A DNA stretch of 39,666 bases from an uncultured beta proteobacterium. Its GTDB lineage: Bacteria; Pseudomonadota; Gammaproteobacteria; Burkholderiales; Rhodocyclaceae. Below the pieces are notes generated by a model that was not told the DNA's origin, ran no database searches, and was given only the letters and a program-made list of their open reading frames with translations. The translations under genes were made by a program, and so were the position numbers. Each line of letters begins with the position of its first letter. Within the stretch, counting starts at the first letter, position 1. Below are positions 13,263 to 35,345 of this stretch, piece by piece. Where the stretch lies: assembly GCA_903848955.1 (NCBI GenBank), contig CAINHS010000043.1:1-39666 (forward strand), written 5' to 3'.

Positions 13263-14459
13263 TCAGCCGGGCTGACCGTCAGCACGAGACCGGATCAGCC
13301 AGGGTGTGTAGCGCCACAGGTAAAGAAGGAAAGCCAGCGTCCAGGCCGTGGCGGCAATCTGAATGCCTGCTGCCGCGGCAAGCGGCAGGGCCAGGAGAGT
13401 AAGCACACGGGTTGCGGCAGCCATCTGAATCAAGCCGTAGGCCGTGACTTCGAACCGGCTGACCTCAAGTATACGGCCGGTGTGGCCAAGTGCGGTGCGC
13501 GTGATCATGCCGAGGATCAGGCTGCCGGTGGCGCCGATGGCCAGCGCATGTACCGGCGCCGACGGCGGCAGCGACGCCACGCCGCCGGCTGCAATCAGCG
13601 CCAAACCAACCGCTATCCAGAGATGTCCGGCATGCAGAATCCACAGCAACGGGGTGTGGCGCGTCGCGGCGGGATTCCAGCCCAGGGTTCTGGCCAGTTG
13701 CAGCAGGGCCGCCAGCGCAGCAACGGGTGCGCCGACAAACTCCGGTGCATTCAGGCTCCAGAGCAAGAGTGCGATTGCGCTGCTTGCAATCGCGGCATGG
13801 TTGAGCCACGGTCGCTGCCACTGGCGAAAGCCTGGCGTCCCGCGCAAGGCGCTGGCCGTGAACGAAGGAATGACGCGGCCGCCAATGATGGTTTCCAGCA
13901 TGACGACCAGGCTCAGCATGAGATGCAGCGTCGTCACCGGGTCGACTGCAATGAACTGCAGGCGGGCCAGATGAAAGGCCAGATTGCTTCCGGCCATGAC
14001 CATGAGCAGGACCGGCAGGAAGTAATTGCGCTGACTGCGGCCGCGCAGCAGAACCCGTCCCAGGGCTGTTGCGGCCGCCGGCAGGAACAGCACGTCGATC
14101 AGCGCGGCAATCAAGCCGCCTTCAAATGCCATGGCGATGCGACCGCACAGCCAGATCAGCGCCAGCGCGGCGAGGGGCTTTCCCGATGGCGTCGGCAGTC
14201 CGGTCCAATTGCGCCCGGCGGTAAACAGGAAGCCGACAACAACGGCAACAACAAAGCCGAACAGCATTTCATGGGCATGCCACCAGAGCCCCGGCAGCGG
14301 CAGCTTGACGAGGCCGCCGAGCACGGCCACCCAGACCGGAACGGCGAGCGCGGCAAACAGCGCGGCGAGCAGATAGAAGGGCCTGAAGCCCAGCGCCCAG
14401 AGCGAAAATGTGCCGGCCGGGATGCGCTGGCGGGGATCATCGAGATGTAGCAGCGCCAT
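13263..14459 (-). CDS. nnrS: NnrS family heme/copper membrane protein (copy 2, nir operon)
   Basis: This 398-residue membrane protein has about 12 hydrophobic segments and the NnrS signatures LGFRPFYLL (about 23-31) and HAHEMLFGF (H61, H63). A C-terminal TRTALGHTGR segment is shared with copy 1. Its start overlaps the nirN stop by one base (TGATG at 14457-14461), so it is translated with the d1-biosynthesis genes. NnrS proteins bind heme and copper and relieve NO stress. Placement in the nir operon points to a role while NirS is making NO. Copy 1 is clearly diverged, so this is not a recent duplicate. Confidence 0.93.
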   Translation of the reverse strand: MALLHLDDPRQRIPAGTFSLWALGFRPFYLLAALFAALAVPVWVAVLGGLVKLPLPGLWWHAHEMLFGFVVAVVVGFLFTAGRNWTGLPTPSGKPLAALALIWLCGRIAMAFEGGLIAALIDVLFLPAAATALGRVLLRGRSQRNYFLPVLLMVMAGSNLAFHLARLQFIAVDPVTTLHLMLSLVVMLETIIGGRVIPSFTASALRGTPGFRQWQRPWLNHAAIASSAIALLLWSLNAPEFVGAPVAALAALLQLARTLGWNPAATRHTPLLWILHAGHLWIAVGLALIAAGGVASLPPSAPVHALAIGATGSLILGMITRTALGHTGRILEVSRFEVTAYGLIQMAAATRVLTLLALPLAAAAGIQIAATAWTLAFLLYLWRYTPWLIRSRADGQPG

Positions 14460-16033
14460 CAGTGGCTTGTGCCTTCCGAGCGGTTGATCTTGTTGTAGAG
14501 GTTGTACTTGCCGACCGGCTTGTCCATCGGGATGCGTTTGACTTCCTTGAAGGTCTCGGCATCAAACACTATCAGCGCGCCGCCGTCGGCGCGGCGCTCC
14601 ATGAGGCTGGCCAGGGCGTAGCGGCCATCGCGGGTGAATTCGACGTGGGCCAGCGTCTTGCCCTTTTCCGGCCGCAGTTCGGCGACCCGTTGCAGCGTGC
14701 TCTTGTCGATCACCTGCAGCGTGTCCTTGTTGCTGCTCATCATCGAATCGACCCAGGCGAAGCGGGAGTTTTCATGGGAACGCGTGAAGAAGCCCGGCCC
14801 CAGCGTGGCGATGCTTGTTATCGTCTGCCAGGTCTTCATGTCGATCACGGTGACCGCGCCGTCCTTGAGGTTCGGGCTGGCCATCACGGTGCGGCCGCGC
14901 CAGTTCCAGGTGATCCCGGAGCCCAGGTGCGGCATGCCGGAAAGCTCGAGATCGGCGATCTTGCGCCGGATGTCGAGATTGACGACCTGCGCCTTGCCCT
15001 GCCGGCTCGCGCCCATGACATTGGCGTAGGTGGCGTCGAAATAGAAATCGTCAAGCGGGCTTTCAAGAAGGGTGCGGCGGGCATTCTGGAAGCCCGTCAG
15101 GGCAATGGCTTCGCCCATCTGGTAGTCGTGCACATAACCGTCGAATATCGGCGCGGCATTGGTGTCGTAGGAGATTTCCCACAGTTCCGCGATGTCCTTC
15201 ATGGCGACGACGAAGCTGCGGCGCGGCGCGGCATCATAGACGGCGGAAACGCGCGAACCGAGCTTGCCGTCGCGGCTGCCGGCCGTCATGACCTTGACCA
15301 GGTTCAGGTCGGCATCCAGCAGTACCAGGCTGTTGGGCAGGTAGTTGGCGGCCATGATCCATTTGCCGTCAGCCGAAACCGCCAGATTGCGGGTGTTGAT
15401 GCCGACGCGGATTTCGACGGTGGTTTTCTGGTTCCAGATATCGAACTTGCTGATCCAGCCGTCACGCGAAGCAAAAAAAACGTAGCGCCCGTCGGCGGTG
15501 AACTTGGGGCCGCCGTGCAGCGCGTAGCGGCTTTGAAAACGATGAATCGGCTCAAGCTTGTCGCCGTCGAGGATGCTGACGTGATGGTCGCCGACCTCGA
15601 CCACCAGGAACAGGTTCATCAGATCCCGGCCCTGCAGCAGCTCATCGGGACGGTCCGGCAGCGATCCTGCCGCGTGATGCACAAGCCGCGAGGCCATGAT
15701 GTCGGCTTCAGTGAAGGCCGGTGGCGGCAATGCGGCGGTATAGATGAAGTCGGCCAGTGCCGCGATTTCATCCGCCTTCAGCTTGTCGGCAAAGCCCGCC
15801 ATCTGGGTCGCGGCACGCCCGTCACGGATGGTTTTCAGCGCTTCCGGCTTGCGCAGTCGCTCGAGGCTTTCCGGCAGCAGCGCCGGTCCCATGATGCCGA
15901 AGCGGTTGGCTCCGTGGCAGCTCGCGCAATGCGTTGCGAACAGCGCAGCGGGCTCGACAGCTTCGGCGGCGGCGGGCGCGACGGCGGCGGTCAGCAGGCT
16001 GAGGGCCGCCAGACAGGGCTTCCAGCCGCTCAT
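14459..16033 (-). CDS. nirN: NirN: cytochrome c / d1-type dihydro-heme d1 dehydrogenase
   Basis: This periplasmic enzyme oxidises dihydro-heme d1 to heme d1 in the last pathway step. It has 524 residues: a signal peptide (to about AAAEA, residue 24), a cytochrome c domain with CASCH (C36, C39, H40), and an eight-bladed propeller like that of NirS. The C-terminus KYNLYNKINRSEGTSH is the NirN ending, whereas NirS ends in HDVY. The start at 16033 makes an ATGA overlap with the nirJ stop (16030-16033), and a longer N-terminal reading lacks sense. NirN also binds and passes d1 to NirS, by family knowledge. The distinction from a second NirS is secure from the ending and the operon position. Confidence 0.92.
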   Translation of the reverse strand: MSGWKPCLAALSLLTAAVAPAAAEAVEPAALFATHCASCHGANRFGIMGPALLPESLERLRKPEALKTIRDGRAATQMAGFADKLKADEIAALADFIYTAALPPPAFTEADIMASRLVHHAAGSLPDRPDELLQGRDLMNLFLVVEVGDHHVSILDGDKLEPIHRFQSRYALHGGPKFTADGRYVFFASRDGWISKFDIWNQKTTVEIRVGINTRNLAVSADGKWIMAANYLPNSLVLLDADLNLVKVMTAGSRDGKLGSRVSAVYDAAPRRSFVVAMKDIAELWEISYDTNAAPIFDGYVHDYQMGEAIALTGFQNARRTLLESPLDDFYFDATYANVMGASRQGKAQVVNLDIRRKIADLELSGMPHLGSGITWNWRGRTVMASPNLKDGAVTVIDMKTWQTITSIATLGPGFFTRSHENSRFAWVDSMMSSNKDTLQVIDKSTLQRVAELRPEKGKTLAHVEFTRDGRYALASLMERRADGGALIVFDAETFKEVKRIPMDKPVGKYNLYNKINRSEGTSH

Positions 16034-17169
16034 GTCGAGATTTCCCCGGTAGTCAGATAGCAACCCGGATCTTCCGCCCAGGGATCGCCGGTGAGTTGTT
16101 GCGCACGCACCCGCGTATTGCCGCCGCAGATGGCGAAATGGGCGCAGCTGCCGCAGCGTCCGCCGACCTTCCGCGGCCTGGCCTTGAGCCCTGCCATCAA
16201 GGGATCGGAAGTGTCCGTCCAGATGGCGGAAAACGGACGCTGGCGCACGTTGCCGAGGGTGTGATGCCACCACATCGTGTCGGCGTGGACATTGCCCAGG
16301 TTGTCGATGTTGGCAACGTTCACGCCGCTCGAGTTGCCGCCCCACTGCCGCAGCTTGGCCTCGACATGGGCGGCGCGCTCGGGAAAGCGCCGACGCACCC
16401 AATGCAGCAGATAGACGCCATCGGCATCGTTGTTGCCGGTGGTGAAATCCTTGACGATGCCTTGCCGCTGGTGGTTCCAGCAGGTATCAAAAAGCAGGTC
16501 CATGGCTTGCCGCGTCATCTGGTGCCGGGCATCGTCGGCGCGGTTGCGGTTGCCGCGCCCGGCATAGTTGAGGTGGGAGAAATAGAAGCGGTCGATGCCT
16601 TCGCTTTCGACCAGCTGCAGCAGAGCGGGGAGGTCGTGAAAATTGTCGCGGGTCAGGGTGAAGCGCACGCCGACCTTCATCCCGGCGTCGCGGCAGAGAC
16701 GAAGCCCGGCCAGCGAGAGGTCGAAGGCTCCGCTCATGCGGCGGAACCTGTCGTGGGTCGGTCCGAGGCCGTCGAGACTGATGCCGACGTAGTCGAAACC
16801 GACTGCGGCGATCCGCGCACAGCGCCCGGCGTCGATCAGCGTGCCGTTGCTGGAGAGTGCCGTAAAGAAGCCCTGCGCCTTGGCACGACCGGCAATCTCG
16901 AAGATGTCCGGACGCAACAGCGGCTCGCCACCGGAAAGAATCAGCGCCGGCACCGAAAAACCCTTGAGGTCATCCATTACTGCAAAGATCTCTGCGGTGT
17001 CGAGTTCGCCGGCAAAATCCTTGTCGGCGGAAATCGAGTAGCAGTGCTTGCAGGTGAGGTTGCAGCGGCGGATCAGGTTCCAGATGACAACCGGGCCGGG
17101 CGGCGAACGCATCGCACCAACCGGGGTCGGCGCCATGATTTCCTGCATGTATTGCGATATTCGAAACAT
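16030..17169 (-). CDS. nirJ: NirJ: radical SAM heme d1 biosynthesis enzyme
   Basis: This is a radical S-adenosylmethionine enzyme that works on 12,18-didecarboxysiroheme to introduce the side-chain changes leading to d1. It has 379 residues and is cytoplasmic. The start at 17169 was chosen because the family begins MFRISQYMQE; 16 extra codons upstream look non-coding. CNLTCKHC gives the CxxxCxxC cluster ligands C36, C40 and C43. SGGEPLLRPD follows for SAM binding. A C-terminal CGSCAHFAICGG region with spaced cysteines holds a second (SPASM-type) cluster. It lies between nirH (86-nt gap) and nirN (4-nt overlap). Confidence 0.95.
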   Translation of the reverse strand: MFRISQYMQEIMAPTPVGAMRSPPGPVVIWNLIRRCNLTCKHCYSISADKDFAGELDTAEIFAVMDDLKGFSVPALILSGGEPLLRPDIFEIAGRAKAQGFFTALSSNGTLIDAGRCARIAAVGFDYVGISLDGLGPTHDRFRRMSGAFDLSLAGLRLCRDAGMKVGVRFTLTRDNFHDLPALLQLVESEGIDRFYFSHLNYAGRGNRNRADDARHQMTRQAMDLLFDTCWNHQRQGIVKDFTTGNNDADGVYLLHWVRRRFPERAAHVEAKLRQWGGNSSGVNVANIDNLGNVHADTMWWHHTLGNVRQRPFSAIWTDTSDPLMAGLKARPRKVGGRCGSCAHFAICGGNTRVRAQQLTGDPWAEDPGCYLTTGEIST

Positions 17170-21074: not shown

Positions 21075-22865
<1,791 letters not shown>

Positions 22866-23521: not shown

Positions 23522-24103
23522 TCATTTGCCGGCCAGCAGCAGTCGCAGATCGGCGGCAATGTTGTCGGGCTTCTCGCCGTGGCGCACCAGCAATCTCAGC
23601 CGGCCCTGCGGGTCGAAGGCATAGCTGCCGGTGGAGTGATCGATGCTGTAGCTGCCGGGGGTCGAACCCGGCTGCCTGGCGTAGAACACCTTGAAGTCTT
23701 TGGCCACGGCCGCGATGCCCTGTTCGTCGGCATACATGCCGAGAAAGCCCGGATCGAACGCCGGGACATACTGGGCCAGCAAAGCCGGCGTATCACGCGC
23801 CGGGTCCACGGTGACGAACAGCACCTGCACCCGCCCGGCATCTTCGCCGAGCAGCTTCATGGCATCGCGCATGGTCGCCAGGGTGGTGGGGCAGACATCG
23901 GGGCACTGCGTATAGCCGAAGAACATGACCACGGCCTTGCCGCGGAAATCGGCGAGACGGCGCGGCTGGCCGCGATGATCGGTGAGACTGAAATCCCTGC
24001 CCCAGTCAGCCGTCGAAAGATCGGTGGAGACAAAAACAGGCGGCTTGGAACATCCGCCCAGGGACAGGGAAAAACACAGCAACAGGGCCGGTAGCAGCTT
24101 CAT
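23522..24103 (-). CDS. SCO1/SenC family copper-delivery lipoprotein
   Basis: This 193-residue thioredoxin-fold lipoprotein has lipobox LGGC (C18). The copper-binding CPDVC (C67, C71) and H156 (SIDHSTGS) are the three SCO1 ligands. SCO1 proteins carry copper to the CuA site of oxidases or keep its cysteines reduced, at the outer face of the inner membrane. It is divergent from a heme-copper-like protein (start 24190), with 86 bases between, and is followed by the DUF1318 gene. A second SCO1, differently anchored, sits at 29685-30563. The family call is secure, the client is unknown. Confidence 0.92.
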   Translation of the reverse strand: MKLLPALLLCFSLSLGGCSKPPVFVSTDLSTADWGRDFSLTDHRGQPRRLADFRGKAVVMFFGYTQCPDVCPTTLATMRDAMKLLGEDAGRVQVLFVTVDPARDTPALLAQYVPAFDPGFLGMYADEQGIAAVAKDFKVFYARQPGSTPGSYSIDHSTGSYAFDPQGRLRLLVRHGEKPDNIAADLRLLLAGK

Positions 24104-24189
24104 GGTAGACAGAGCGGGGGGTGGTCTGCGCGGTGTTCAGTGTAGCATCCGGCCTTGCAGCACACTTTCACATCTTTCGCGGGGCAATA

Positions 24190-25521
24190 GTGAATTCGCA
24201 TATCATCACGGTTTCCGGGGGCTCGGCCCAAAAGCTTGCCAGAGCCTGGTTGTGGTTGGGGCTGATGGCTCTGATCGGTTCCGGCCTGCTGGCCATCCTG
24301 CTGGTGCTGTCGCGCACGCCGGGCATTCAGGACGTGTTCCCGCTGAAGGATTTCTTCCGCTCGGCGCTGGTGGTACACGTCGACCTCTCGGTGGCGGTCT
24401 GGTTCATGGCCTTCGCCGCCGTCATCTGGAGCGCGCTGGGCCGTGACGGCGCCGCCTGGCTGGGTTGGAGCGGCTTCGCGCTGGCGGCGGCCGGCACCGC
24501 GGTGATGACGGTGTCGCCCTTTCTGCCGGGCGCCGACCCCGTGCTCAACAACTACATTCCGGTATTGCAGCAGCAGGTGTTCTACGCCTCGCTGTGGATC
24601 TGCGGCGCCGGTTTCAGCCTCGCCGTAGTGCGCGCGCTGATCACCACCTGGCCGCGACCCTTCTTCGGCGCTCCGCTGCAGCTCGGCGCCTTTCTCGGCG
24701 CGGTGGCGGCTTTCCTTGCGCTGGCGGCCTTTGTCTGGTCCTGGGCCATGGTGCCGAGAATCGAAGAAAAGATTTATTTCGAAGTCCTGTTCTGGGGCGG
24801 CGGGCATACCCTGCAGTTCCAGCACGCACTGCTGCTGGCGGTGGCCTGGCTGTGGCTCGCCGCGCATCTCGGCCACCCCTGCGCGGCTTCGCCGCGCGCG
24901 CTGTCGGTGATGTTCTGGATTGCCGCTCTGCCGCTGGTGATGGTGCCGCTGATTTATGTCACGGAGGATCCCGGCTCGCTGCCGCACATGGAGCTTTTTG
25001 CCAAGCTCATGGTCTGGGGTCATCCCTACATGGCACCGCTGATTCTGGCCGGCTTCCTCAGCCTGTGGAGCGCGCGCAAGGCAGCCCCCGGCCCGGCCAA
25101 GTCGGCCTTCATCGCCTCGTTTTCCCTGTTCGCCGTCGGCGGCGTGCTGGCCTACATGATTAAGGGCGCCAACGTGGTGATTCCGGCGCATTACCACGGC
25201 TCCACGGTCGGCGTCACACTGGCCTTCATGGGACTGGGCTATGTGCTGTTGCCGCAGCTCGGCTTCGGCGAGGTGAAGGGCCGCATGGCGCGCTGGCAGC
25301 CTTATGTGTATGGCGGCGGGCAGTTGATTCACGTTGTCGGCCTGGCCTGGTCCGGCGGCTACGGCGTGCAGCGCAAGGTGGCCGGCGCCGAGCAGGCGCT
25401 GACCACCCTGCCGCAGAAGCTCGGCATGGGCATGATGGGGCTGGGCGGCCTGATTGCCGTCATCGGCGGCATCATGTTCGTGCTGGTCTGCCTCAAGGTC
25501 ATGGTGCCGCGGCGGCGGTAA
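24190..25521 (+). CDS. Heme-copper oxidase-like subunit I with altered CuB site
   Basis: This 443-residue membrane protein with about 12 helices aligns in pattern with heme-copper subunit I. H63 (VVHVDLS) and the pair H334/H336 (PAHYHGST) match the heme ligands, and H206 (GGGHTLQF) matches the first CuB ligand. The usual HH pair is replaced by I255-Y256 just before TEDPG, and the cross-link Tyr position (+4 from H206) is F210. The start is a GTG at 24190, chosen over a longer reading without membrane pattern. It could be a non-canonical NO reductase or a heme-only electron protein. The gene is divergent from SCO1 and convergent with the cytochrome b-reductase. The family call is good, the activity is unknown. 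Confidence 0.82.
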   Translation: MNSHIITVSGGSAQKLARAWLWLGLMALIGSGLLAILLVLSRTPGIQDVFPLKDFFRSALVVHVDLSVAVWFMAFAAVIWSALGRDGAAWLGWSGFALAAAGTAVMTVSPFLPGADPVLNNYIPVLQQQVFYASLWICGAGFSLAVVRALITTWPRPFFGAPLQLGAFLGAVAAFLALAAFVWSWAMVPRIEEKIYFEVLFWGGGHTLQFQHALLLAVAWLWLAAHLGHPCAASPRALSVMFWIAALPLVMVPLIYVTEDPGSLPHMELFAKLMVWGHPYMAPLILAGFLSLWSARKAAPGPAKSAFIASFSLFAVGGVLAYMIKGANVVIPAHYHGSTVGVTLAFMGLGYVLLPQLGFGEVKGRMARWQPYVYGGGQLIHVVGLAWSGGYGVQRKVAGAEQALTTLPQKLGMGMMGLGGLIAVIGGIMFVLVCLKVMVPRRR

Positions 25522-25561: not shown

Positions 25562-27472
25562 CTACCCCTTCGGCTGCAACGCCAGAGAGCGGGCCGAAAT
25601 GGTGAAGGCATCCGAGAAGCACATGCCCTCCTCCGCGCCCTGATTCTTCAGCGTCGGGAAAATCGCTTCGACCATTTTCACCGAGCCGCAGGCGTAGATT
25701 TCATGGCCCCTGAGGTCGGGAAAATCTTCCAGGATGGCCTCGTGTACCAGCCCGGTGCGCCCGCTCCAGTTGTCCTCCGGCGCGGCGTCTGACAATACCG
25801 GAATGAAGTGGAAGTTGGCGTGCTCGCGTGCCCAGCCCAGGGGCAGGTCGGGCAGATACAGATCCGCCAGTTTGCGCACGCCCCAGTAAAGATGGATCTG
25901 ACGCTTGAGTCCGCGCCGGAAGGCATCCTCGACCATGCTCTTGACCGGGGCGAAACCCGTGGCGCCGGCGACGAAAACGATGGGGCGTTCCGATTCGCGC
26001 AGGGAGAAATCGCCCAGCGGGCCTTCGAAACGGACGCTGTCGCCCGGCTTCATCTGCTCGAAGACATGCGTGGTGAACAGGCCGTCCGGCATCAGCCGGA
26101 TCTGCAGTTCCACCAGTTCGGGCTGGTGCGGCGGATTGGCGAAGGAGAAGGCGCGGCGCTGGCCGTCGTCGAGGATGATGTTGATGTATTGGCCGGCCCT
26201 GAACGGGATCTGCTGACCTTGCGGCAGCCTCAGCAGGATGCGCATGACATCATGGCTGAGCTTTTCCATGGTCGCCACACGGGCCGTGTATCGGCCGATG
26301 GCGCGGGCTGCGGAGGCCTGGTATTCGATCTCGACATCGCCGAGCGCGGTGGCGCAGCACAGCAGCACCTTGCCTGCCGCGCGCTCCCCGGCCGAGAGTG
26401 CATCAGGCTGATACAGGCCGGGGTCTACATTGCCGCTCAGAACGGTGCATTTGCACTGGCCGCAGCCGCCGTTGCGACACTCGTAAGGCAGGTCGATGCC
26501 TTGTCGCAAACCCGCATCCAGCAGGGTTTCGTCGAAACGGATGGCGACGGTCCGCTGGTCGGGATGGAAGGTGACGGCAGCCTCTGCCTTGGCGCCACCG
26601 AGGCGCTTGGGCGGCAGCCACGGCGTGAGGAACAGCAGCAGCGTCAAGCCCGTCACGCCGAACCAGAGATACAGCGGGTTGATGACATAGACCAGGGCCA
26701 GTACCGGCATCTGGAACCAGTCGAACTGGATGTTGGTGGGCACCACCAGCATGTCCGCCTCGCCGCCCTGACTGACAATCGGCTTGACCAGGGCCAGCGC
26801 GATGAACATCAGAGTGACGGCGACGGCGATCTGGCGCGGCGGGTTGACGTGGGCGCGCGGCACGCGCTGCACATGCACCCAGGCGATAACCCCGGCTATC
26901 AACGGCGCGCCGAGGTGGATGAAGGCGAGCAGGGTGAACAGCCGGCTGGTGACGTTTTCCTGATAGATGAAGTTGCGGATCAGGGTGCCGTTGAACATCG
27001 GCAGCACGTCGAACCACTCGGCGGTCGCCACCACCACGAACTGCGCCAGCTTGTCCCACACCAGCATGAAGCCGTTGAGGCCGGAGATATATACCAGCCA
27101 GATCAGGGCGACGCCGGTGACCCAGGAAAACCAGCGGAAGCCGCGGTAGCGGTCATAGGCGAAGTGCCGCAGCAGATGCAGCATCATGGTCAGGATCATG
27201 CCGTCCGTGGCGTAGCGATGCACGCTGCGCATGATGCCGCCGGCCCACCATTGATTGTGGGTGATGCGTTCCACCGAGCTGTAGGCGTCATGCACGCCGG
27301 TATCGGCAAAGATGTAGAGGTAGATGCCGGTGCCGACCAGCAGCCAGAACTGCCAGAAGGTGATGGTGCCGAGGTGGTAGAAGGGATTGGTTTTTTCGCC
27401 GAAGGCGGCGTTGAACAGGCTCTCCGCACGCATGAAGAACCAGCGCACGAGCGTTTGAAGGAGATTCAGCAT
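25562..27472 (-). CDS. Cytochrome b fused to 2Fe-2S ferredoxin and FAD/NAD(P) reductase
   Basis: This 636-residue protein joins three modules. Residues 1-290 form a diheme cytochrome b with ligands H85/H99 and H186/H200, each pair spaced 13 residues, and a Qo-type segment IQFDWF (248-253) in place of PEWY. Residues 300-385 form a plant-type 2Fe-2S domain with C332, C337, C340 and C372. Residues 395-630 form a ferredoxin-reductase-like domain with the FAD motif RAFSFAN (440-446), GATGFAPV and YACGSVKM. It would pass electrons between NAD(P)H, FAD, 2Fe-2S, b hemes and quinone. The start at 27472 begins the cytochrome module and has a weak ribosome site. It is the last gene of the 29584-25562 operon. 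Confidence 0.88.
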   Translation of the reverse strand: MLNLLQTLVRWFFMRAESLFNAAFGEKTNPFYHLGTITFWQFWLLVGTGIYLYIFADTGVHDAYSSVERITHNQWWAGGIMRSVHRYATDGMILTMMLHLLRHFAYDRYRGFRWFSWVTGVALIWLVYISGLNGFMLVWDKLAQFVVVATAEWFDVLPMFNGTLIRNFIYQENVTSRLFTLLAFIHLGAPLIAGVIAWVHVQRVPRAHVNPPRQIAVAVTLMFIALALVKPIVSQGGEADMLVVPTNIQFDWFQMPVLALVYVINPLYLWFGVTGLTLLLFLTPWLPPKRLGGAKAEAAVTFHPDQRTVAIRFDETLLDAGLRQGIDLPYECRNGGCGQCKCTVLSGNVDPGLYQPDALSAGERAAGKVLLCCATALGDVEIEYQASAARAIGRYTARVATMEKLSHDVMRILLRLPQGQQIPFRAGQYINIILDDGQRRAFSFANPPHQPELVELQIRLMPDGLFTTHVFEQMKPGDSVRFEGPLGDFSLRESERPIVFVAGATGFAPVKSMVEDAFRRGLKRQIHLYWGVRKLADLYLPDLPLGWAREHANFHFIPVLSDAAPEDNWSGRTGLVHEAILEDFPDLRGHEIYACGSVKMVEAIFPTLKNQGAEEGMCFSDAFTISARSLALQPKG

Positions 27473-27528
27473 AATCGTTGTCCGCGGCGAAGGGTGGAGG
27501 GTTTCGTTCGATGTTGTCCGGCGGCGGC

Positions 27529-28026
27529 CTACTGGAAGAACAGGCCGCCCTTGTCCGGATTGAAGTCGATCACCAGCACCTGCGCCGGCTTGAGCGTGAC
27601 TTGGGCTTCCTTGATGTAATTGAAGCCGGGGTTGACCAGGTTGTCGTTCATCTTCACGGCGATCCGGTAGCTGCCCGCCTTCACCTCGAAGCGCTTGTAA
27701 ACGGTGGACACGCCATCCTTGGAGAGCCCGGTGGGATGCATCACGGCTTCGAACATGGGCTTGCCGTCCAGTTCCAGTTGCAGCCTGATATCGGACCGCT
27801 CGCGCGGGCACTCCAGCGGTGCGCGCATGTTGGGCGGCAGTTTGGCCAGCTCGTCGGCGCTGCGCTTGCGGCACTCGCGGCCGCCGAGGTGGCTCATCGA
27901 GAGCTTGATCAGGGCGACGTCGTCGCCGATCTGCCGATACACGGGCGAGGTGGCGAAGTAGCCGATGAAGGCGGCGAAGGCGCCGTACAGGACGATCTGG
28001 CCGACGATGGCGGCGGGCTTAGGCAT
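27529..28026 (-). CDS. Hypothetical membrane-anchored protein between the two cytochrome b fusions
   Basis: This 165-residue protein has one N-terminal hydrophobic segment (about 8-27) and then a mainly beta-strand periplasmic-type domain, judging by the alternating pattern. Cysteines stand in GGRECRKR and PLECPRE. The start overlaps the stop of the upstream fusion gene by eight bases (28019-28026), and the next gene starts 56 bases downstream, so all three are probably one operon. I do not recognise the family. A structural or accessory subunit of a membrane complex is inference from position. Confidence 0.78.
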   Translation of the reverse strand: MPKPAAIVGQIVLYGAFAAFIGYFATSPVYRQIGDDVALIKLSMSHLGGRECRKRSADELAKLPPNMRAPLECPRERSDIRLQLELDGKPMFEAVMHPTGLSKDGVSTVYKRFEVKAGSYRIAVKMNDNLVNPGFNYIKEAQVTLKPAQVLVIDFNPDKGGLFFQ

Positions 28027-29584
28027 GATGATTTTTTCTCCGGGAATAGGTGGGCGGTCGGCGACTGGCGGCCATCCGGGTTTCGAGCTCGGTTCTGAAT
28101 TCCGTTACGGCAACCAGAAGTTGCCTGCTTTCGCTGCGCGATGCCGGCACCAGTCGCAGCCGGTCCTGCGGCACGAGCTCGCGCAGATGCGGTTCGCGCC
28201 TGTGGTCAAGCCGCTCCTGCGTCCATTGCATGCCGAGACGGAAATCGCAGCCGCCGTCGCGGCAGCCGGTGACGACGACGCCGTCGGCGCCGCTGCGCAG
28301 TGCATATTCGATGAACGAAGGCGGCAGCATGCCGGTGCACAGCAGGCTGATGGCGGCGGTGTCGGCAGCATCCAGGCTGCGCACATCGACCCCGCGCTCG
28401 CAGCCGAAGACGACCAGCTTGGTGGTGCCGCCGAGACCGGCGAGGCGGGCTTCAAGTTGCCGGCGCACGGCGTCCACCGGTTGTTGCGGCATGTCGATGC
28501 CGGTCACCAGCCTTTCCTGACTGCGGAAGGGAGTCGATGACGGGCAGGAGCCGGCGCAAATGCCGCAAGCGGCGCAAAGCCCGGGATCGACGACGGCGAT
28601 CCGGTGGCCCGGCTTGTCGGGATGCCCCGCCATGGTGACCGCCTCGTAGGGACAGTCGGCGTGGCAACGGCCGCAGCCGTTGCAGTTGGCGGCATCGACC
28701 AGGGCGACGGGCTGCGCCTTCGGTCGCGGCAGCCAGGGCAGGACGAAGAGCAGCAGCGTGGCGCCGAATATCAGCGCCCACACCGCCGCCGGCGAGGTGA
28801 CGTCGGTCAGCGGATGGATGAACAGGATGAACCAGTCCAGCGGCAGGGCGGCAGGCACCAGCGACAGATTCGCCGGCGCCTGGCTCAGCGCCGGCTGGAT
28901 CGCCGCCAGCGCCAGAAGGCTGGCCAGAGTTCCCAGCATCAAGTTCCGCGACGGCAGGTAATCCACCCGACTGATGCGATTGACATGAGCCCAGAGGCCG
29001 AGGATCAGCATCAGCGGAATGCCGATGTGGATGAAGACGAGGATGGTAAAGAAGCGGTCGTTGATCGAATCCGGCGCGAGGAAGTTGCGCGCCGTCGGCT
29101 CGTTGAAAAAGGGCAGCCAGTCGAGCAGTTCGGTGGTGGCGATGGCGGAGTACTGCGCCACGCGGTCCCAGACGATCCAGTAGCCGCCGATGCCGGAAAT
29201 ATAGGCAAACCAGATCAGCGGCACGCCGGTGATCCAGGAATAGAGACGGAAACCGTAGTAGCGGCCGCAGGCCCACTCCCGCAGCAGATGCAGCATCATG
29301 ACCAGGACAAAGGCATCGGAGGCGTAGCGGTGCAGGCTGCGCAGTATGCCGCCGAGATACCACTGCTGCTGCGACAGGTGGCCGATGGAGCGGTAGACGC
29401 CGTCGATGCTGGTGTCCAGCACCGCGTAAAGGTAAAGCCCGCTGGCCACCAGCAGCCACAGGAAATACAGCCCCAGGGCACCCAGATGGCGCAGGGGATT
29501 GTCGGTGCCGCCGAAGAACGCGTCGAAGAAGATCTCGCTGCGCTCGAAGAGGGTTTGCGCGTTGCCGCGCAAGCTTGCGTACAT
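28019..29584 (-). CDS. Cytochrome b fused to 2x[4Fe-4S] ferredoxin and MvhD-like module
   Basis: This 521-residue protein has modules in order. Residues 1-285 form a diheme cytochrome b with ligands H85, H99, H186 and H200 at exactly the same positions as in the 25562-27472 protein, plus PLDWF (248-252) at the Qo motif place. Two 4Fe-4S sets follow, C301/304/307/311 and C337/340/343/347. The last domain (about 388-480) is like MvhD, the small iron-sulfur subunit that links hydrogenase to heterodisulfide reductase, with C395, C416, C441 and C446. Electron flow between low-potential donors, b hemes and quinone is inferred. It is the first gene of its operon, with an FNR-type promoter upstream. 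Confidence 0.9.
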   Translation of the reverse strand: MYASLRGNAQTLFERSEIFFDAFFGGTDNPLRHLGALGLYFLWLLVASGLYLYAVLDTSIDGVYRSIGHLSQQQWYLGGILRSLHRYASDAFVLVMMLHLLREWACGRYYGFRLYSWITGVPLIWFAYISGIGGYWIVWDRVAQYSAIATTELLDWLPFFNEPTARNFLAPDSINDRFFTILVFIHIGIPLMLILGLWAHVNRISRVDYLPSRNLMLGTLASLLALAAIQPALSQAPANLSLVPAALPLDWFILFIHPLTDVTSPAAVWALIFGATLLLFVLPWLPRPKAQPVALVDAANCNGCGRCHADCPYEAVTMAGHPDKPGHRIAVVDPGLCAACGICAGSCPSSTPFRSQERLVTGIDMPQQPVDAVRRQLEARLAGLGGTTKLVVFGCERGVDVRSLDAADTAAISLLCTGMLPPSFIEYALRSGADGVVVTGCRDGGCDFRLGMQWTQERLDHRREPHLRELVPQDRLRLVPASRSESRQLLVAVTEFRTELETRMAASRRPPTYSRRKNHHA

Positions 29585-29646: not shown

Positions 29647-29688
29647 ATGATATGCAAGCCGGAAGTTTTCCGACTTGACTCGAATCAA
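29647..29688 (-). promoter_or_regulatory. FNR/Dnr-type promoter of the cytochrome b operon
   Basis: A box at 29675-29688 reads TTGACTCGAATCAA on the plus strand. On the minus strand a -10 box TATCAT (five of six) lies at 29652-29647, with 22 bases between. This puts the box centre at -41.5 from a start near 29640, the class II activator arrangement, and leaves a leader of about 55 bases to the ATG at 29584. The box overlaps the end of the SCO1 gene. Confidence 0.68.
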
Positions 29689-30563
29689 CCGGATTGAATC
29701 CCGTCGTCGCCGCGATTCCTCATGAAGCTGAAAGCCAGCCAGATCATGAAGATCATGAAGCTGATGAAACCGGCTATCTCGAAATACAGCGCATAGTTGG
29801 TCCGGTATTTCCCGGTGACCGGGTCGTAGACCGAGCAGAGGATTCTGACCCGGTCGGCGATCTCCGCCAGGGTGCCGGTCTGCGGCGGAATTGGGGCGCC
29901 GGTGATCATCGCCTTGAGCGGTTCGGCCAGGTCTGCGGCGGTGAAGCTCTCGCCATAGACCTGCCTGAATATCCTGCCCTCGGCGTCAACGATGGTGACC
30001 TGATTCAGGTGGTCGAAGCCGGCGCTCGTAGCGACATAGCTGAAGCCGAAATCCCGCGTCAACTCGTCGACGATGGCGGCGGCCGGGCTGAGGAATTCCC
30101 AGTTGGGCAGATGGATACCGTACTGGGTGGCGAAGCCTTTCATCGCCGCAGGCGAATCGAAGGGCTGGTTGAAGCCGATGCTGACGATGTTGAAACGGTC
30201 CGGCCCGAGCACGTCGAGCGTACTCTCGACCGCCCGTTGCAGATTGCGCGTCGTGGTCGGACAGACATGGAAGCACGCGGTGTAGACGAAATTCACCAGC
30301 AGAGGCTTGCCCCGGTATGCGGCAAGCGACGTCGGCCGCTCCTGCCGGTCGAGCAGGACATGGTCGCCGACGGGCTTGCCGACCACGCCCTGCGAAAGCT
30401 GCAGTGCGGCCTTTTCGTCGAGCGTGGTGAGAGTCAGGCCGCTACGCGCGCCCTGCGGACGTTCAACGAGCGCGGGAGCCGGCGCCTTGTCTGCTGCGGA
30501 CTGGACGCTGCCCGCCGCAAAGACCAGAACTGCCGCAGCTGCGGCACGAATGAAGGGATGCAT
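29685..30563 (-). CDS. SCO1/SenC-like protein with C-terminal membrane anchor
   Basis: This 292-residue thioredoxin-fold protein has an N-terminal signal peptide (to about residue 23) and SCO1 ligands C97 and C101 (CFHVC) and H185 (GFDHLNQ). About 100 residues follow, with a hydrophobic helix near 257-283 and a basic cytoplasmic tail. Most SCO1 proteins are anchored at the N-terminus, so the C-terminal anchor is unusual. The ATG at 30563 was preferred; a GTG at 30566 is one codon earlier. It follows cyoE by 18 bases and precedes the cytochrome b operon promoter. It probably delivers copper to the CuA or CuB site of the nearby heme-copper enzyme. Confidence 0.86.
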   Translation of the reverse strand: MHPFIRAAAAAVLVFAAGSVQSAADKAPAPALVERPQGARSGLTLTTLDEKAALQLSQGVVGKPVGDHVLLDRQERPTSLAAYRGKPLLVNFVYTACFHVCPTTTRNLQRAVESTLDVLGPDRFNIVSIGFNQPFDSPAAMKGFATQYGIHLPNWEFLSPAAAIVDELTRDFGFSYVATSAGFDHLNQVTIVDAEGRIFRQVYGESFTAADLAEPLKAMITGAPIPPQTGTLAEIADRVRILCSVYDPVTGKYRTNYALYFEIAGFISFMIFMIWLAFSFMRNRGDDGIQSG

Positions 30564-30581
30564 CACAAGCCGGGCGGCGCA

Positions 30582-31472
30582 CTAGAAACGCGCGTCGATG
30601 ATGGCGGCCGTGAGCACCAGGGTCAGCTGAGCCAGCGAGGCATGGAAGCAGGTCATGGCGGTTGCGCGGTTGGTGTTCTTGACCAGACGCCAGGCCTTCT
30701 GGATGAACAGGAAGCCGCCGGCAGCCGCACCGGCAAAGTAGATGGCGCCCAGGCCGAAGGCCAGCGGCAGGAACGACGCGGCCACCAACAGCAGAGTGCT
30801 GCCGAAAATGGTTTGCGCTGCGCGTTTGTCGCCTACCACCAGAGGCAGCATGGGCACTCCGGCCGCGGCGTAGTCATCGCGGTAGGCGATGGCCAGGCTC
30901 CAGAAGTGCGGCGGCGTCCAGAGAAACAGCACGAAAGCCAGCGCCAGCGGCACGGCACCGAGATGCGGATCCGCGGCGGTGGCTCCGGCCAGCACCGCCC
31001 AGCTGCCGGCCAGGCCGCCGAACACGATATTCAGCCAGGTGCGGCGCTTCAGCCATACGGTGTAAACAACGGCATAGAAAAATGCGCCGAGAAAGACAAA
31101 CAATGCAGCTACTGCATTCAGCGCAAACCATGCGGCGCCCACCGACAGCACCATCAATCCGACGATCGCCACCAGCCAGATGGGCCCGTGGCGGATCTCC
31201 CCGGTGGCAAAAGGCCGGTTGCGGGTGCGCGACATCAGGGGATCGGTGTCGTACTCGTAATACTGGTTGAAGGCGCCTGCGCTGCCCGAGGAAATCAGCA
31301 CGGCCAGCATCAGTGTAATGAACTGCGCCGCGCTCAGGCTGGGACCGCTGCTCACCGCCAGTCCTGCCAGCGCGGTGAAGGTGATGACGACGCCGATGCG
31401 CAGCTTGAACACCCCCATGATGGCACGGAAGGGGAAGCCTGAAGATCGGGTCGGGGGCAGCGTCGATTCCAT
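30582..31472 (-). CDS. cyoE: Protoheme IX farnesyltransferase (heme O synthase)
   Basis: This enzyme attaches a farnesyl group to heme b to make heme O (EC 2.5.1.141) in the inner membrane. It has 296 residues and about nine hydrophobic segments. The prenyltransferase motif NQYYEYDTDPLMSRTRNRP is near residue 70, and YRDDYAAAGVPML is near residue 190. Length and motifs fit CyoE/CtaB. It stands between the eNOR-like subunit genes (behind a double hairpin) and the anchored SCO1. Together with ctaA (34299) it indicates that a local heme-copper enzyme uses heme O or A. Confidence 0.95.
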   Translation of the reverse strand: MESTLPPTRSSGFPFRAIMGVFKLRIGVVITFTALAGLAVSSGPSLSAAQFITLMLAVLISSGSAGAFNQYYEYDTDPLMSRTRNRPFATGEIRHGPIWLVAIVGLMVLSVGAAWFALNAVAALFVFLGAFFYAVVYTVWLKRRTWLNIVFGGLAGSWAVLAGATAADPHLGAVPLALAFVLFLWTPPHFWSLAIAYRDDYAAAGVPMLPLVVGDKRAAQTIFGSTLLLVAASFLPLAFGLGAIYFAGAAAGGFLFIQKAWRLVKNTNRATAMTCFHASLAQLTLVLTAAIIDARF

Positions 31473-31611: not shown

Positions 31612-33309
31612 TCAGCTGAGCCCCCAGACTTCGGACAGGTACTTCCAATTCACGAAGTAGTAGAGCACAAAACACACCAACAGGGTGATTGCCAGAACCA
31701 CGGTACCCGGCACGTTGGTATGCTCTTCGCTGCCGGTGGCGGAAGCCGCTGCAGCAGCCGTCTGATCCGGAATCGGCGTCGGCTTGTCGGAGGTCGCGCC
31801 GCCGTCAAGCTTCTTGCCGAACAGCAGCGAGCCGACTACCAGCAGGATCCACAGCCCGCCACCGACGACTGCGATCACGCCGAAGATTCCGGTCAGACCC
31901 ATCATCAGGTATGCGGCACCCGGCCATTCATACTGGAACGGCGCGCCCGAGAAGGCCATGTCCCAGTGACGGCGGGAAACGCCCAGGGTGCCGGCGCCCA
32001 TCATCACCAGCGACAGCACGATCATGCTGATGCCGTACAGGTAGGGCTGGATCTGGCACAGCTTGGGGAAAATCATTTCGCGCTTGAACAAGGTCGGCAC
32101 CAGCAGGTAGGTGACGGACATGAAGGCCAGCGTAGTGCCGACGACGACCGTGGCATGGAAGTGACCCGGCACGTAGAAGGTGTTGTGCATCAGCATGTTG
32201 ATCTGTTCGGTTCCCAGCACGACGCCCGAGATGCCGCCGATGAAGCCGAAGCCGACCAGGGAAATGAACATGCCGGAGAACACCGGATTGCCCCAGGGTG
32301 CCTTGCGCAGCCACTCGAACAGGCCGTTGGTGAAACCTTTCCTGCGCTGCGCCGCTTCGATCGCCCCCGGCACGGTAAAGCCGTGGATCATCGAGGCCAG
32401 CACCGCGAAGTACATGAAGTAGGAGGTATTCAGCACCTTCCACTCCGCGCTCATGCCCGGGTCGGACAGCAGGTGATGCGCGCTGGCCAGTTGCAGGAAC
32501 AGGATGTAGAGCAGGAAGGCGAAGCGCGACACTTTCTCGGACAGCGGCTTGGCACCGAAGGCCACGGCAGCGACCAGATACCAGATCGCGACGTGGGCCG
32601 AGACGTTGATCTGCTGCGAGGAGTGACCCAGCGCCCACCAGACCATGCGATACAGCTGCGCATCGATTTCCTTGATCCAACCCATCGACCAGGCGAAGGT
32701 CGGGATCAGGATCGCGGCGCCCGAAGCGATGGTGAACACGGCGATGATCGCCGCGGTCATGGCACCGAAAGTCACCAGCGGAATCGATCCCGTGTAGGTC
32801 TTTTCCCGCTTCGCCACCACCAGCGTGCCGAAGAACACGCCGCAGCCGATCAGCGCGCCTACCGCGAACAGGATGATGCCGAGGTAGAAGTGCGGTGCGG
32901 CCTGCATCGGCACGTAGGACGTGAACATCACGCTCGACCCGCCCTGGAAGATCGCGACGTTGGTCATGATGCCGCCGACCACCATCAGCCAGAACTGGAC
33001 CCACGCCAGCGCCGGCGTGGCAATCCGGCATCGCAGCAAGGTCGAGGAAGCGAAATAGAGCACGGCCATCTCGAAGAAGATGATCCACAGGATCAGCATG
33101 TCGATGCCGTGGGCCGTCAGGATCAGGTAGAACTGGTCTGCCGGCAGCAGCTTGATCGCCGGCCAGCGCGTCAGGATCACCAGCAGGGCGGTGATGCCGC
33201 CCACCAGCAGCCACAGCACGCCGGCTACGGCATTCCAGCGCATCAGCTTCTCGGCCGCCAGATCGAATTGCAGCCCGGTACGCGGGCAGGTGCGGTAAGT
33301 AGTTGCCAT
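31612..33309 (-). CDS. Heme-copper oxidoreductase subunit I, probable eNOR-like NO reductase
   Basis: This 565-residue protein has about 14 hydrophobic segments. Heme ligands are H67, H383 and H385, and CuB ligands are H229, H278 and H279, all present. The canonical HPEVY motif is GHSSQQ here, so the Tyr that cross-links to the CuB His (+4) is Gln (Q233). Loss of this Tyr argues against a normal oxygen reductase, and Gln there is the trait I recall for the eNOR family. It is encoded with a CuA subunit and a 47-residue membrane protein, near cyoE and ctaA. NO reduction is inferred. The superfamily is sure and the family likely. Confidence 0.85.
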   Translation of the reverse strand: MATTYRTCPRTGLQFDLAAEKLMRWNAVAGVLWLLVGGITALLVILTRWPAIKLLPADQFYLILTAHGIDMLILWIIFFEMAVLYFASSTLLRCRIATPALAWVQFWLMVVGGIMTNVAIFQGGSSVMFTSYVPMQAAPHFYLGIILFAVGALIGCGVFFGTLVVAKREKTYTGSIPLVTFGAMTAAIIAVFTIASGAAILIPTFAWSMGWIKEIDAQLYRMVWWALGHSSQQINVSAHVAIWYLVAAVAFGAKPLSEKVSRFAFLLYILFLQLASAHHLLSDPGMSAEWKVLNTSYFMYFAVLASMIHGFTVPGAIEAAQRRKGFTNGLFEWLRKAPWGNPVFSGMFISLVGFGFIGGISGVVLGTEQINMLMHNTFYVPGHFHATVVVGTTLAFMSVTYLLVPTLFKREMIFPKLCQIQPYLYGISMIVLSLVMMGAGTLGVSRRHWDMAFSGAPFQYEWPGAAYLMMGLTGIFGVIAVVGGGLWILLVVGSLLFGKKLDGGATSDKPTPIPDQTAAAAASATGSEEHTNVPGTVVLAITLLVCFVLYYFVNWKYLSEVWGLS

Positions 33310-33321
33310 CTAGGACTCCCC

Positions 33322-33861
33322 TTATTTCACGTAAATACGGCCAAGCATCGTGTGATGACCGATGCCGCAGTATTCGTTGCAGACGATGGCATAGGTGCCC
33401 GCCTTGGTCGGCGTCATCTTGACCACATGCTCATAGCCGGGAATGACCTGGATGTTGATGTTCACCGGCTGCAGCGAGAAGCCGTGGTTGTAATCAACCG
33501 ATGACAGGTGAATCTTGTAGGTCTTGCCCGCTTCCAGTTCAAGAATCGGATACCAGGACCACAGGCGTGCGAGCAGGTAGGCTTCGTTCTTCGCATTCGG
33601 CCGCACCACCGGAATGTTCAGCTCGGTCTCGGTGCGAATGGTGTTTTCCTTGACGAATGCATCCGTCTTGGCCGTGTACATCTCGGTCGTCGTCCGGTAA
33701 ACCTCGTTCGATAGATTCTGCTTACCGTTGATGTGCCAATAGACCATCATGACGAACATGATCATGGCCCAGACGAAAGCGATGCCAATCCAGGCCCACT
33801 CTTGTCCGGCGATCGGTTGTTTCCACCACAACCGCTGTGAAGGCGGCAGGATTGCACTCAT
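33322..33861 (-). CDS. CuA-containing subunit II of the eNOR-like enzyme
   Basis: This 179-residue protein has one membrane helix (about 22-43) and then a periplasmic cupredoxin domain. The CuA ligands are complete: H126 (YNHGFS), C161, E163, C165, H169 and M172 in VCNEYCGIGHHTM. It would accept electrons from a cytochrome c or cupredoxin and pass them to subunit I. It is shorter than standard CoxB, which has two helices. The gene ends 12 bases before subunit I and starts 28 bases after the small membrane protein, so all three are one operon. The 47-residue protein may replace the missing second helix. Confidence 0.9.
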   Translation of the reverse strand: MSAILPPSQRLWWKQPIAGQEWAWIGIAFVWAMIMFVMMVYWHINGKQNLSNEVYRTTTEMYTAKTDAFVKENTIRTETELNIPVVRPNAKNEAYLLARLWSWYPILELEAGKTYKIHLSSVDYNHGFSLQPVNINIQVIPGYEHVVKMTPTKAGTYAIVCNEYCGIGHHTMLGRIYVK

Positions 33862-34033: not shown

Positions 34034-34146
34034 CACCTACCCTCCCCGGTTAGCCCCGCTGGCGCGAGATCAATTGAAACAAGCGATCGCCGCTCCTTGG
34101 CGGAGCAACGTTGGGAGAAGACTAATCGGGTCGCCGCGGAAAAAAA

Positions 34147-34160
34147 TTGATCTGAAACAA
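34147..34160. promoter_or_regulatory. FNR-like box between the eNOR-like operon and ctaA
   Basis: TTGATctgaAACAA matches TTGAT-N4-ATCAA at nine of ten positions. It lies in the divergent 265-base gap. At the class II spacing only weak -10 boxes are seen on either side (TAGTCT and AACACT), so which gene it serves is open. Confidence 0.45.
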
Positions 34161-34298
34161 TTTTGGAATCGACAGGTAATGAAACACTGCCGCCGCCTGT
34201 GCGCTCATGAACGCCGCGGTGTCGAAAATTTGCCGGGTCTGTCGTATGCTTGGCGAATTGACAGTTCTTTACCTGTTTTCCTATCTCCGGGATATCCC

Positions 34299-35345
34299 AT
34301 GCAACAGCACGCTCGTCGAAACATCGCTGCCTGGCTATTGATTTGCAGCGCCATGGTGTTTGCCACGCTGGTCGTCGGCGGCGTCACCCGGCTGACGCAT
34401 TCCGGGCTCTCCATCGTCGAATGGCAGCCCATCGTCGGCACGATTCCGCCGCTCAACCAGACCGAGTGGCAGGCCACCTTCGACAAGTACAAGCAGACAC
34501 CCGAATATCAGAAGGTCAATCACCAGATGGCGCTCGACGAATTCAAGGGCATTTTCTGGTGGGAGTATTTCCATCGCGTGCTGGGCCGCACGATAGGTCT
34601 GGTATTCCTGCTGCCGTTTCTCTGGTTTCTGGCGCGGCGCCGGATCGACCGGCCGCTGGCCCTCAAGCTGGCAGGGATATTCGTGCTCGGCGGCATGCAG
34701 GGCGCGATGGGGTGGTACATGGTGAAAAGCGGCCTGATCGACGACCCGCGCGTCAGCCAGTACCGGCTGACGGCCCATCTCTCGCTGGCGTTCGTCATAT
34801 TCACCGCGATGGTGTGGGTGGCGTTCGGCCTGCTTGCCGAACGCACGCGCCAGGTTACCAATGCCGCCCTCGGCAGGCTGCAGCGGACCGGATTCTGGCT
34901 GGCGCTGTTGGCCTTTTACATGATCGTCAGCGGCGGCTTCGTCGCCGGCATCCGCGCCGGCAAGGCCTACAACAGCTTCCCGCTGATGAACGGCGCCTTC
35001 GTGCCGCCGGAGATCTTCATGCTCGAACCGTGGTACCTCAACTTCTTCAACAACATGGCGACGGTGCAGTTCGATCATCGTCTCGGCGCATGGCTGCTGG
35101 CCTTCCTGGTACCGTGGTTCTGGCTGAAAATACGATCCTCACCGGTGCCCGCAGGTGCCCGCCGCGCCGCACATCTTCTGGTGCTGGCGTTGTCGCTGCA
35201 GATCGGACTCGGCATATCCACCTTGCTGCTGGCGGTTCCCGTGGCCCTGGGTGCGGCTCATCAGGGCGGAGCGATGCTGTTCCTCGGCGTCGTGCTCTGG
35301 CTGAATCACGAATTGCGGGTGAGAACGGACGGCTACGATTCCTGA
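34299..35345 (+). CDS. ctaA: Heme A synthase (COX15/CtaA family)
   Basis: This inner-membrane enzyme oxidises heme O to heme A (EC 1.17.99.9). It has 348 residues in eight helices. Conserved histidines stand in [24 protein letters not shown] and AAHQGGA, the usual heme ligands of COX15. The start at 34299 fits the first helix. A longer reading from upstream covers the promoter region. It is divergent from the eNOR-like operon and is convergent, with a four-base gap, with the PatB gene. With cyoE it suggests local heme A production. Confidence 0.94.

Follow-up and report, generated by a model that had tools for sequence, protein, structure and literature searches.

The 39,666-nucleotide contig CAINHS010000043.1 of an uncultured beta proteobacterium of the Rhodocyclaceae (assembly GCA_903848955.1; hereafter the window) carries seven genes, all on the minus strand and running from 33861 to 25562, which encode the two subunits of a heme-copper reductase (HCO2 and HCO1), a heme O synthase (CyoE), a SCO-family protein, and three proteins named here F, M, and B. 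F is a cytochrome b fused to iron-sulfur and MvhD-like domains, B is a cytochrome b fused to an NAD(P) reductase, and M is a small protein encoded between them. An original prediction treated B and F as a pair and overlooked the parent operon, of which B, F, and M are the last three genes. Comparison across genomes shows that the core unit is F-M plus an eNOR-type reductase, with B being optional. Our best reading is that F-M would be an electron-supply or metal-reduction module. We tentatively favor the first of these, in which F and M would be the dedicated transmembrane electron-supply module of a nitric oxide (NO) reductase and B an optional second input.

The linkage was followed in loci named from one scan of genome contigs (80 of 515 confirmed stretches, every locus containing F). 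The order HCO2-HCO1-CyoE-SCO-F-M recurs in the named loci from Pseudomonadota, with B placed before or after F-M. Flanks of 6.5 kb or more are available to either side in 47 loci; M adjoins F in every one of these, HCO1 is within 6 kb in 41, SCO is present in 41, and CyoE in 38. In 36 of these loci, a B gene lies within 7 kb in the same orientation. Of the remaining 11, L093 carries B on the opposite strand, the B of L037 is spread over two frames, and nine have no B in the locus. Six of the 47 have no HCO1 within 6 kb: in L096 and L103 it is further upstream, and the other four (L046, L049, L058, and L059) are all from Accumulibacter. In these four and in the Accumulibacter locus L048, which has short flanks, F-M-B is located away from the reductase, and HCO1 is found elsewhere in the genome in five of five cases; together with two control genomes, HCO1 was found in 7 of 7 Accumulibacter genomes searched. 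In nine alpha- and gammaproteobacterial loci (L036, L094, L095, L098, L102, L105, L106, L108, and L110), a hemerythrin-family gene comes after M, and B was not found in the locus.

Moreover, in a class survey of 369 genomes drawn without regard to F (window genome counted), F is present in 34, HCO1 in 34, and M in 35; F and HCO1 occur together in 33, and M occurs in every genome with F and in one more. The association between F and HCO1 gives a Fisher p of ∼8e-45, a value that ignores genome kinship and overstates independence. Only three mismatches are observed: G255 has F and no HCO1, G304 has HCO1 and no F, and G139 has M but neither of the other two. Beyond the gene that is present, the contig continues for 510, about 20, and 185 bases, respectively, on the side where the missing gene would be expected. 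For the long queries (F, HCO1, and B), three to four candidates per genome were scored in this survey, and the counts of B are lower bounds; B was found in at least 2 of the 33 other survey genomes with F, being far from F amid unrelated genes in G122 and split over two contigs in G381. Within the genus of the window organism, F is found in 22 of 24 relatives, all 22 having a B-type cytochrome part within ∼1.5 kb (truncated at a contig end in two relatives), and HCO1 in 25 of 31 genomes, window genome counted. Two relatives, G013 (97% complete) and G020 (70%), have neither F nor HCO1, and G408 and G410, which the F search did not cover, gave no HCO1 match. The co-occurrence of both fusions outside the window, on which the original prediction depended, is supported in the genus and in most named loci; the pair as the unit is not supported. 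Because the phylogenetic patterns of F, M, and HCO1 are near-identical, the data say that F-M works with this reductase.

The reductase itself has the signature of eNOR. HCO1 (31612–33309, minus strand; Pfam COX1, 222 bits) has ba3-type oxidases as its closest solved relatives (Thermus ba3, E ∼1e-41), the next being a caa3-type chain (1.8e-6). In its active site, GHSSQQINV, a Gln replaces the cross-linked Tyr. This Gln233 (H+4, the position being set by the ba3 alignment) is found in 61 of 61 HCO1 rows of at least 500 residues, window counted, as are the six heme/CuB histidines H67, H229, H278, H279, H383, and H385. Gln at this position is described as diagnostic of eNOR in the part of PMC8756737 available to us. 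A further eNOR criterion, a cupredoxin subunit II gene directly upstream, corresponds here to HCO2 (33322–33861, minus strand; Pfam COX2, 23.8 bits with a cut-off of 22; TIGR02866 CoxB under its cut-off), with the CuA-type motif CNEYCGIGHHTM, whose form occurs in 61 of 64 HCO2 frames. These features suggest that HCO1/HCO2 is an eNOR-type NO reductase and that NO would be the final acceptor in the window organism. A PF00115 search of the window genome (99.97% complete) returned four proteins, namely HCO1 (GHSSQQ), a paralogue at 24121–25521, and two with the motifs GHPEVY and GHNAVGFF, which by these motifs would be aa3-like and cbb3-like, respectively; this one Pfam search showed neither a cNOR nor a qNOR. 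Also, a Cytochrom_D1 Pfam match reveals a cd1 nitrite reductase in the window, presumably NirS at 21075–22793. Other genes that we take, from their sequences, to be nir genes are present, including a second cytochrome c/cd1-like protein (14459–16402, minus strand) adjoining a radical-SAM gene that is presumably NirJ-like, and two membrane proteins near them (10829–11986, plus strand, and 13263–14459, minus strand) would be NnrS-like.

Regarding the fusions, F (28019–29584, minus strand) has 521 residues and B (25562–27472, minus strand) has 636, starting at the ATG at 27472, downstream of the GTG that opens the mechanical open reading frame; both reading frames are open, the F and M genes overlap by 8 bases, and a gap of 56 bases separates M from B. 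Over the curated Pfam cut-offs, F contains Cytochrome_B (34–201), a 4Fe-4S dicluster domain (300–349), and FlpD/MvhD (409–501; 53.2 bits against a cut-off of 22.3), whereas B contains Cytochrome_B (27–201), Fer2 (304–376), FAD_binding_6 (397–489), and NAD_binding_1 (500–604), as in BenC/NqrF-like reductases. No flavin domain was found in F in the Pfam scan. The original prediction had four histidines at the same positions in both proteins, and indeed His85, His99, His186, and His200 are present in B and in F. The two cytochrome parts are paralogues with 44% identity over query residues 10 to 290, and the positions coincide because both parts descend from a common ancestor. In alignments with rows chosen by hand (the window plus 40 of 52 B, and the window plus 49 of 76 F), no His ligand and no cysteine of the Fe-S and MvhD domains varies in any of the 41 B rows or the 50 F rows. 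Among them, C395, C416, C441, and C446 of F are presumably the cluster ligands of the MvhD domain. A frameshift or assembly artefact, which would have undone the prediction, was ruled out by the many intact homologues in the named loci, near-full-length B being present in 52 of 80 and F in 76 of 80. Exceptions among relatives, kept uncorrected, are the two-frame B of L037 and the F of G024, which is broken into two pieces and contains a stop.

The cytochrome part of these proteins resembles cytochrome b of the bc1 complex. Its profile aligns to three bc1 cytochromes b with probabilities of 98.5 and 99.0%, and the structure model of F shows six membrane-length helices (predicted local distance difference test, pLDDT, of 88). 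By homology, His85/186 would be the ligands of heme bL and His99/200 those of heme bH in F. Lys and Arg counts, averaged per loop and not normalised by loop length, run from 2.0 to 4.0 for loops on the side of the N terminus and from 0.5 to 2.0 for those opposite, which favors a cytoplasmic location, next to heme bH, of the Fe-S and flavin modules. The predicted fusion of an NAD(P)H-linked or an Fe-S module, on the cytoplasmic side, to a transmembrane diheme cytochrome b is supported. Moreover, a conserved Asp-Trp(-Phe) in the last external loop aligns with the Qo motif of bc1, although the three template sequences read P-L/V-W-Y there and are themselves without the Glu; Asp and Trp are invariant in the 41 B rows and the 50 F rows. 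As judged from these alignments, both B and F appear to retain a bc1-like motif on the positive (p) side of the membrane, with Asp-Trp for Glu-Trp. Among 95 cytochrome parts placed in an unrooted tree, two of which (L076 and G034) are nearly identical in sequence, B falls into a single group (93/81; on one side of a branch in 90% of bootstrap trees), and F does not. B therefore looks like an offshoot of F-type cytochromes, as far as an unrooted tree can show. In the same tree, the F cytochrome parts of Gallionellaceae (L103 and L107) group with B and not with other F, perhaps through gene conversion between neighbours.

M (27529–28026, minus strand) has 165 residues and no match in Pfam or NCBIfam. 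As originally predicted, a membrane-anchored protein appears to lie between F and B in one operon: the AlphaFold2 model of M shows an N-terminal helix followed by a beta-sandwich (pLDDT 93.7), from which we infer that it is anchored in the membrane and periplasmic. No confident match to its fold was found in the PDB (best E 0.017), and no solved relative was found by sequence. Cys52 and Cys73 are conserved in 77 of 77 rows, Met67 in 74, and His46 in 72, these four residues being a plausible copper or disulfide site; a further alignment consists of the window plus 53 of 75 M, with rows chosen by hand. A relationship of M with FixH/CcoH was tried and rejected, since hhalign gave a probability of 0.1 against 17 low-diversity FixH rows, a result as empty as that of two unrelated controls (0.0).

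A third type of input module could exist in G196. This genome has HCO2, HCO1, CyoE, F, M, and the paralogue that lacks CuB ligands and, further down the same strand within this operon, a cytochrome b fused to flavodoxin-FAD-NAD domains. The diflavin fusion and the neighbouring F correspond to L117:3675-6224 and L117:10653-12530, both on the minus strand. The cytochrome part of the fusion is identical to that of this F over 876 bases, except for two mismatches in the first three, and the flanks are unrelated; gene conversion, a recent duplication, or misassembly may be its origin. In a search of two genomes of the order of G196, the one besides G196 has neither gene.

In the reading that we favor, NAD(P)H electrons would enter B via FAD and 2Fe-2S, and a low-potential Fe-S or thiol-type partner would dock on the MvhD domain of F. 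From either module, electrons would pass to heme bH on the negative (n) side (His99/200), then to heme bL (His85/186), and reach a quinone-like pocket on the p side containing the Asp-Trp motif. From this pocket, perhaps through M, they would be delivered to the CuA subunit of the reductase and finally to NO. The domain make-up, the conserved ligands, the topology signals, the operon, and the phylogenetic linkage are observed; the direction of flow and the acceptor on the p side are, like NO as the final acceptor, parts of this proposal. Besides these observations, the diflavin fusion of G196 and a Chloroflexi open reading frame with similar domains, described below, speak for it. From its resemblance to BenC/NqrF, B would be expected to run towards NAD(P)H oxidation. 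Several observations weigh against the proposal. The genes of the assembly factors SCO and CyoE sit between the reductase and F, and hence F-M may be assembly proteins. Also, CuA usually takes electrons from cytochrome c, and because HCO2 retains the CuA motif, it could be served in this way with no need for a dedicated donor. In two genus relatives, G006 (99% complete) and G009 (81%), F is present with no HCO1 match, perhaps because F lies 656 and 1236 bases, respectively, from a contig start, leaving the upstream genes off the contig. Many genomes have no B near F, the Asp of the Asp-Trp motif is Asn in the relative L010, and the diflavin fusion is known from a single metagenome-assembled genome (MAG) with an exact repeat, where misassembly is possible.

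The alternative closest to these objections is that F and M are biogenesis factors of eNOR, a possibility we regard as less probable but by no means negligible. In this case, F would send cytoplasmic electrons to reduce periplasmic Cu(II) or disulfides, and SCO and M would load CuA and CuB, like the cupric reductase CcoG beside CcoH for the cbb3 oxidase. F and M come after SCO and CyoE in most loci, the conserved cysteines, His46, and Met67 of M would suit such a copper or disulfide site, and a near-constant pairing with the reductase is what an obligate assembly factor would show. CcoG uses two [4Fe-4S] clusters, with its gene set beside oxidase genes, according to the accessible part of PMC7558416. 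Nonetheless, no FixG/FixH-type Pfam family is present in F or M, the profile of M gives the low FixH probability already stated, and copper reduction needs neither a quinone-type motif nor an NAD(P)H-linked paralogue. Electron supply is preferred over assembly because the heme ligands, the quinone-type motif, and the paralogue linked to NAD(P)H are in keeping with a respiratory input.

Other explanations appear improbable. It is doubtful that the reductase is an oxygen reductase, with F-M-B serving O2 respiration or redox balance: the genes for heme O and heme A synthases adjoin, but the active-site Tyr is Gln in all 61 rows, and the window has the cd1 nitrite reductase and, presumably, other nir genes. 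The ba3-type oxidase transcripts reported for Accumulibacter by Camejo et al. (PMC6446978, seen in part) might come from this operon. Similarly, there is little reason to expect that B, and perhaps F, works in reverse as a quinol:NAD(P)+ oxidoreductase that re-oxidises quinol under anaerobiosis, as proposed for Accumulibacter. The Accumulibacter loci carry B and the quinone-like p-side motif is conserved, but electron transfer from ubiquinol to NAD(P)+ is strongly uphill, flow from the p to the n side opposes the membrane potential, the reductase part of B resembles NADH-oxidising families, and the linkage with eNOR would be left unexplained. The least probable explanation is the one of the original prediction, where B, F, and M would be one stand-alone membrane enzyme that connects quinone with NAD(P)H and with a low-potential donor (ferredoxin or thiol), possibly by electron bifurcation. 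The genes are adjacent, the cytochrome b is common, and two cytoplasmic modules are available. However, B is missing in 9 of 47 loci and sparse in the survey, F-M tracks the eNOR-type reductase nearly perfectly, and F has no flavin domain in the Pfam scan. Our comparisons gave no evidence of such a complex or of electron bifurcation.

A wider and rather unlikely proposal would be that of a new respiratory unit. Here, cytoplasmic NAD(P)H and an Fe-S donor of low potential would directly feed an eNOR-type reductase via the fused bc1-like diheme cytochromes b of F and B and a copper-binding periplasmic M, by-passing Rieske/bc1; one cytochrome b would serve as the chassis for input modules that can be exchanged on the cytoplasmic side. 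No Rieske domain was found among the operon proteins scanned with Pfam and NCBIfam. NO reduction yields the greenhouse gas N2O. The operon supplies an eNOR candidate in the seven Accumulibacter genomes and in the window genome, and F and M could serve as eNOR markers. In the Accumulibacter genomes of PMC6446978, nirS is reported to be present, norBC in none, and norZ in few.

The remaining operon genes are CyoE/CtaB (30582–31472, minus strand; TIGR01473, 264 bits with a cut-off of 210) and SCO (29685–30566, minus strand; PF02630, 45.5 bits), a SCO1/SenC-family copper or thiol chaperone. Divergent from the operon is CtaA, a heme A synthase (34074–35345, plus strand; NF045570, 333 bits, under its cut-off of 550). 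On the other side lies the paralogue of subunit I without two of the three CuB histidines (24121–25521, plus strand; Pfam COX1, 35.3 bits with a cut-off of 34.8), adjoined by a second SCO1/SenC protein (23522–24103, minus strand; PF02630, 146.5 bits). This paralogue keeps the heme histidines H66, H337, and H339 and the CuB histidine H209 (numbering of its alignment), and a Tyr-Val aligns with the CuB His pair, the Tyr being found in 48 of 48 rows. It was found in 29 of 34 genomes with F against 17 of 335 others, and it is co-directional with F-M in many other loci. No RNA element reached the gathering score in the window. As for a mobile or viral origin, no phage match and no relative among viral contigs was found; three plasmid records match, one covering 94% of F at 45% identity and two covering ∼30%.

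The original prediction that no such enzyme had been described stands in part. F-M as a partner of eNOR was not found in the literature searched, a search that did not include the main eNOR paper (PNAS 2024), and its novelty is not certain. No partners like F, M, or B are named in the part of PMC8114936, on eNOR, that was available, and among the matches listed for papers from 2019 on, none has both eNOR and Candidatus Accumulibacter. For B, the claim does not hold as well, since B is probably the 'novel quinol reductase' that is present in most Accumulibacter genomes according to PMC4930944, seen in part; PMC2289847, also seen in part, mentions 'a novel cytochrome'. Garcia Martin (2006) reportedly described the enzyme as cytochrome b/b6 joined to NAD(P) and Fe-S domains, and B of the Accumulibacter loci, having cytochrome b, Fe-S, and NAD(P) domains, matches this description. 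It differs in context, being proposed for the anaerobic tricarboxylic acid cycle, and the available text of PMC4930944 does not connect it with eNOR, F, or M. The Accumulibacter enzyme thus becomes testable in a new setting, NO reduction and not this cycle.

Compared with eNOR as presented in the accessible parts of PMC8756737 and PMC11388526, the reductase shares the Gln in subunit I, the cupredoxin subunit II directly upstream, and its occurrence in Proteobacteria, but it is linked here to F, M, and often B, partners of a kind not described for eNOR in those parts. CcoG/CcoH offers a similar arrangement, a membrane protein with two [4Fe-4S] clusters followed by a one-helix protein with a beta-domain; however, no sequence similarity was found, and F has ligands for two b hemes. 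With cytochrome b of the bc1/b6f complexes, B and F share the four histidines with the same spacing (two pairs 14 residues apart), the first four helices plus two, and a recognisable Qo-motif position, and the membrane part of F matches cytochrome b of complex III by fold. In contrast, B and F have Asp-Trp for Glu-Trp and fused cytoplasmic redox domains, and instead of eight helices, or b6 plus subunit IV, the F model has six, the last helices being absent. Residues 307 to 624 of B match BenC over nearly its full length (204 bits), although under the NCBIfam cut-off (430), and B differs from BenC/NqrF-type reductases in being fused to a cytochrome b. Similarly, residues 293 to 502 of F match the C-terminal part of HdrA2 (571–770; 7e-24, under the family cut-off), but unlike HdrA2/MvhD, F is fused to a membrane cytochrome b and shows no HdrA flavin domain in the Pfam scan. 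Finally, a counterpart of F by its listed domains is an open reading frame of a Chloroflexi MAG, RME88945.1, entered without comment in Table A3 of PMC8756737 (seen in part), where cytochrome b6, ferredoxin-type, and FlpD domains are joined in one polypeptide as in F, with an extra cytochrome c (C1) domain.

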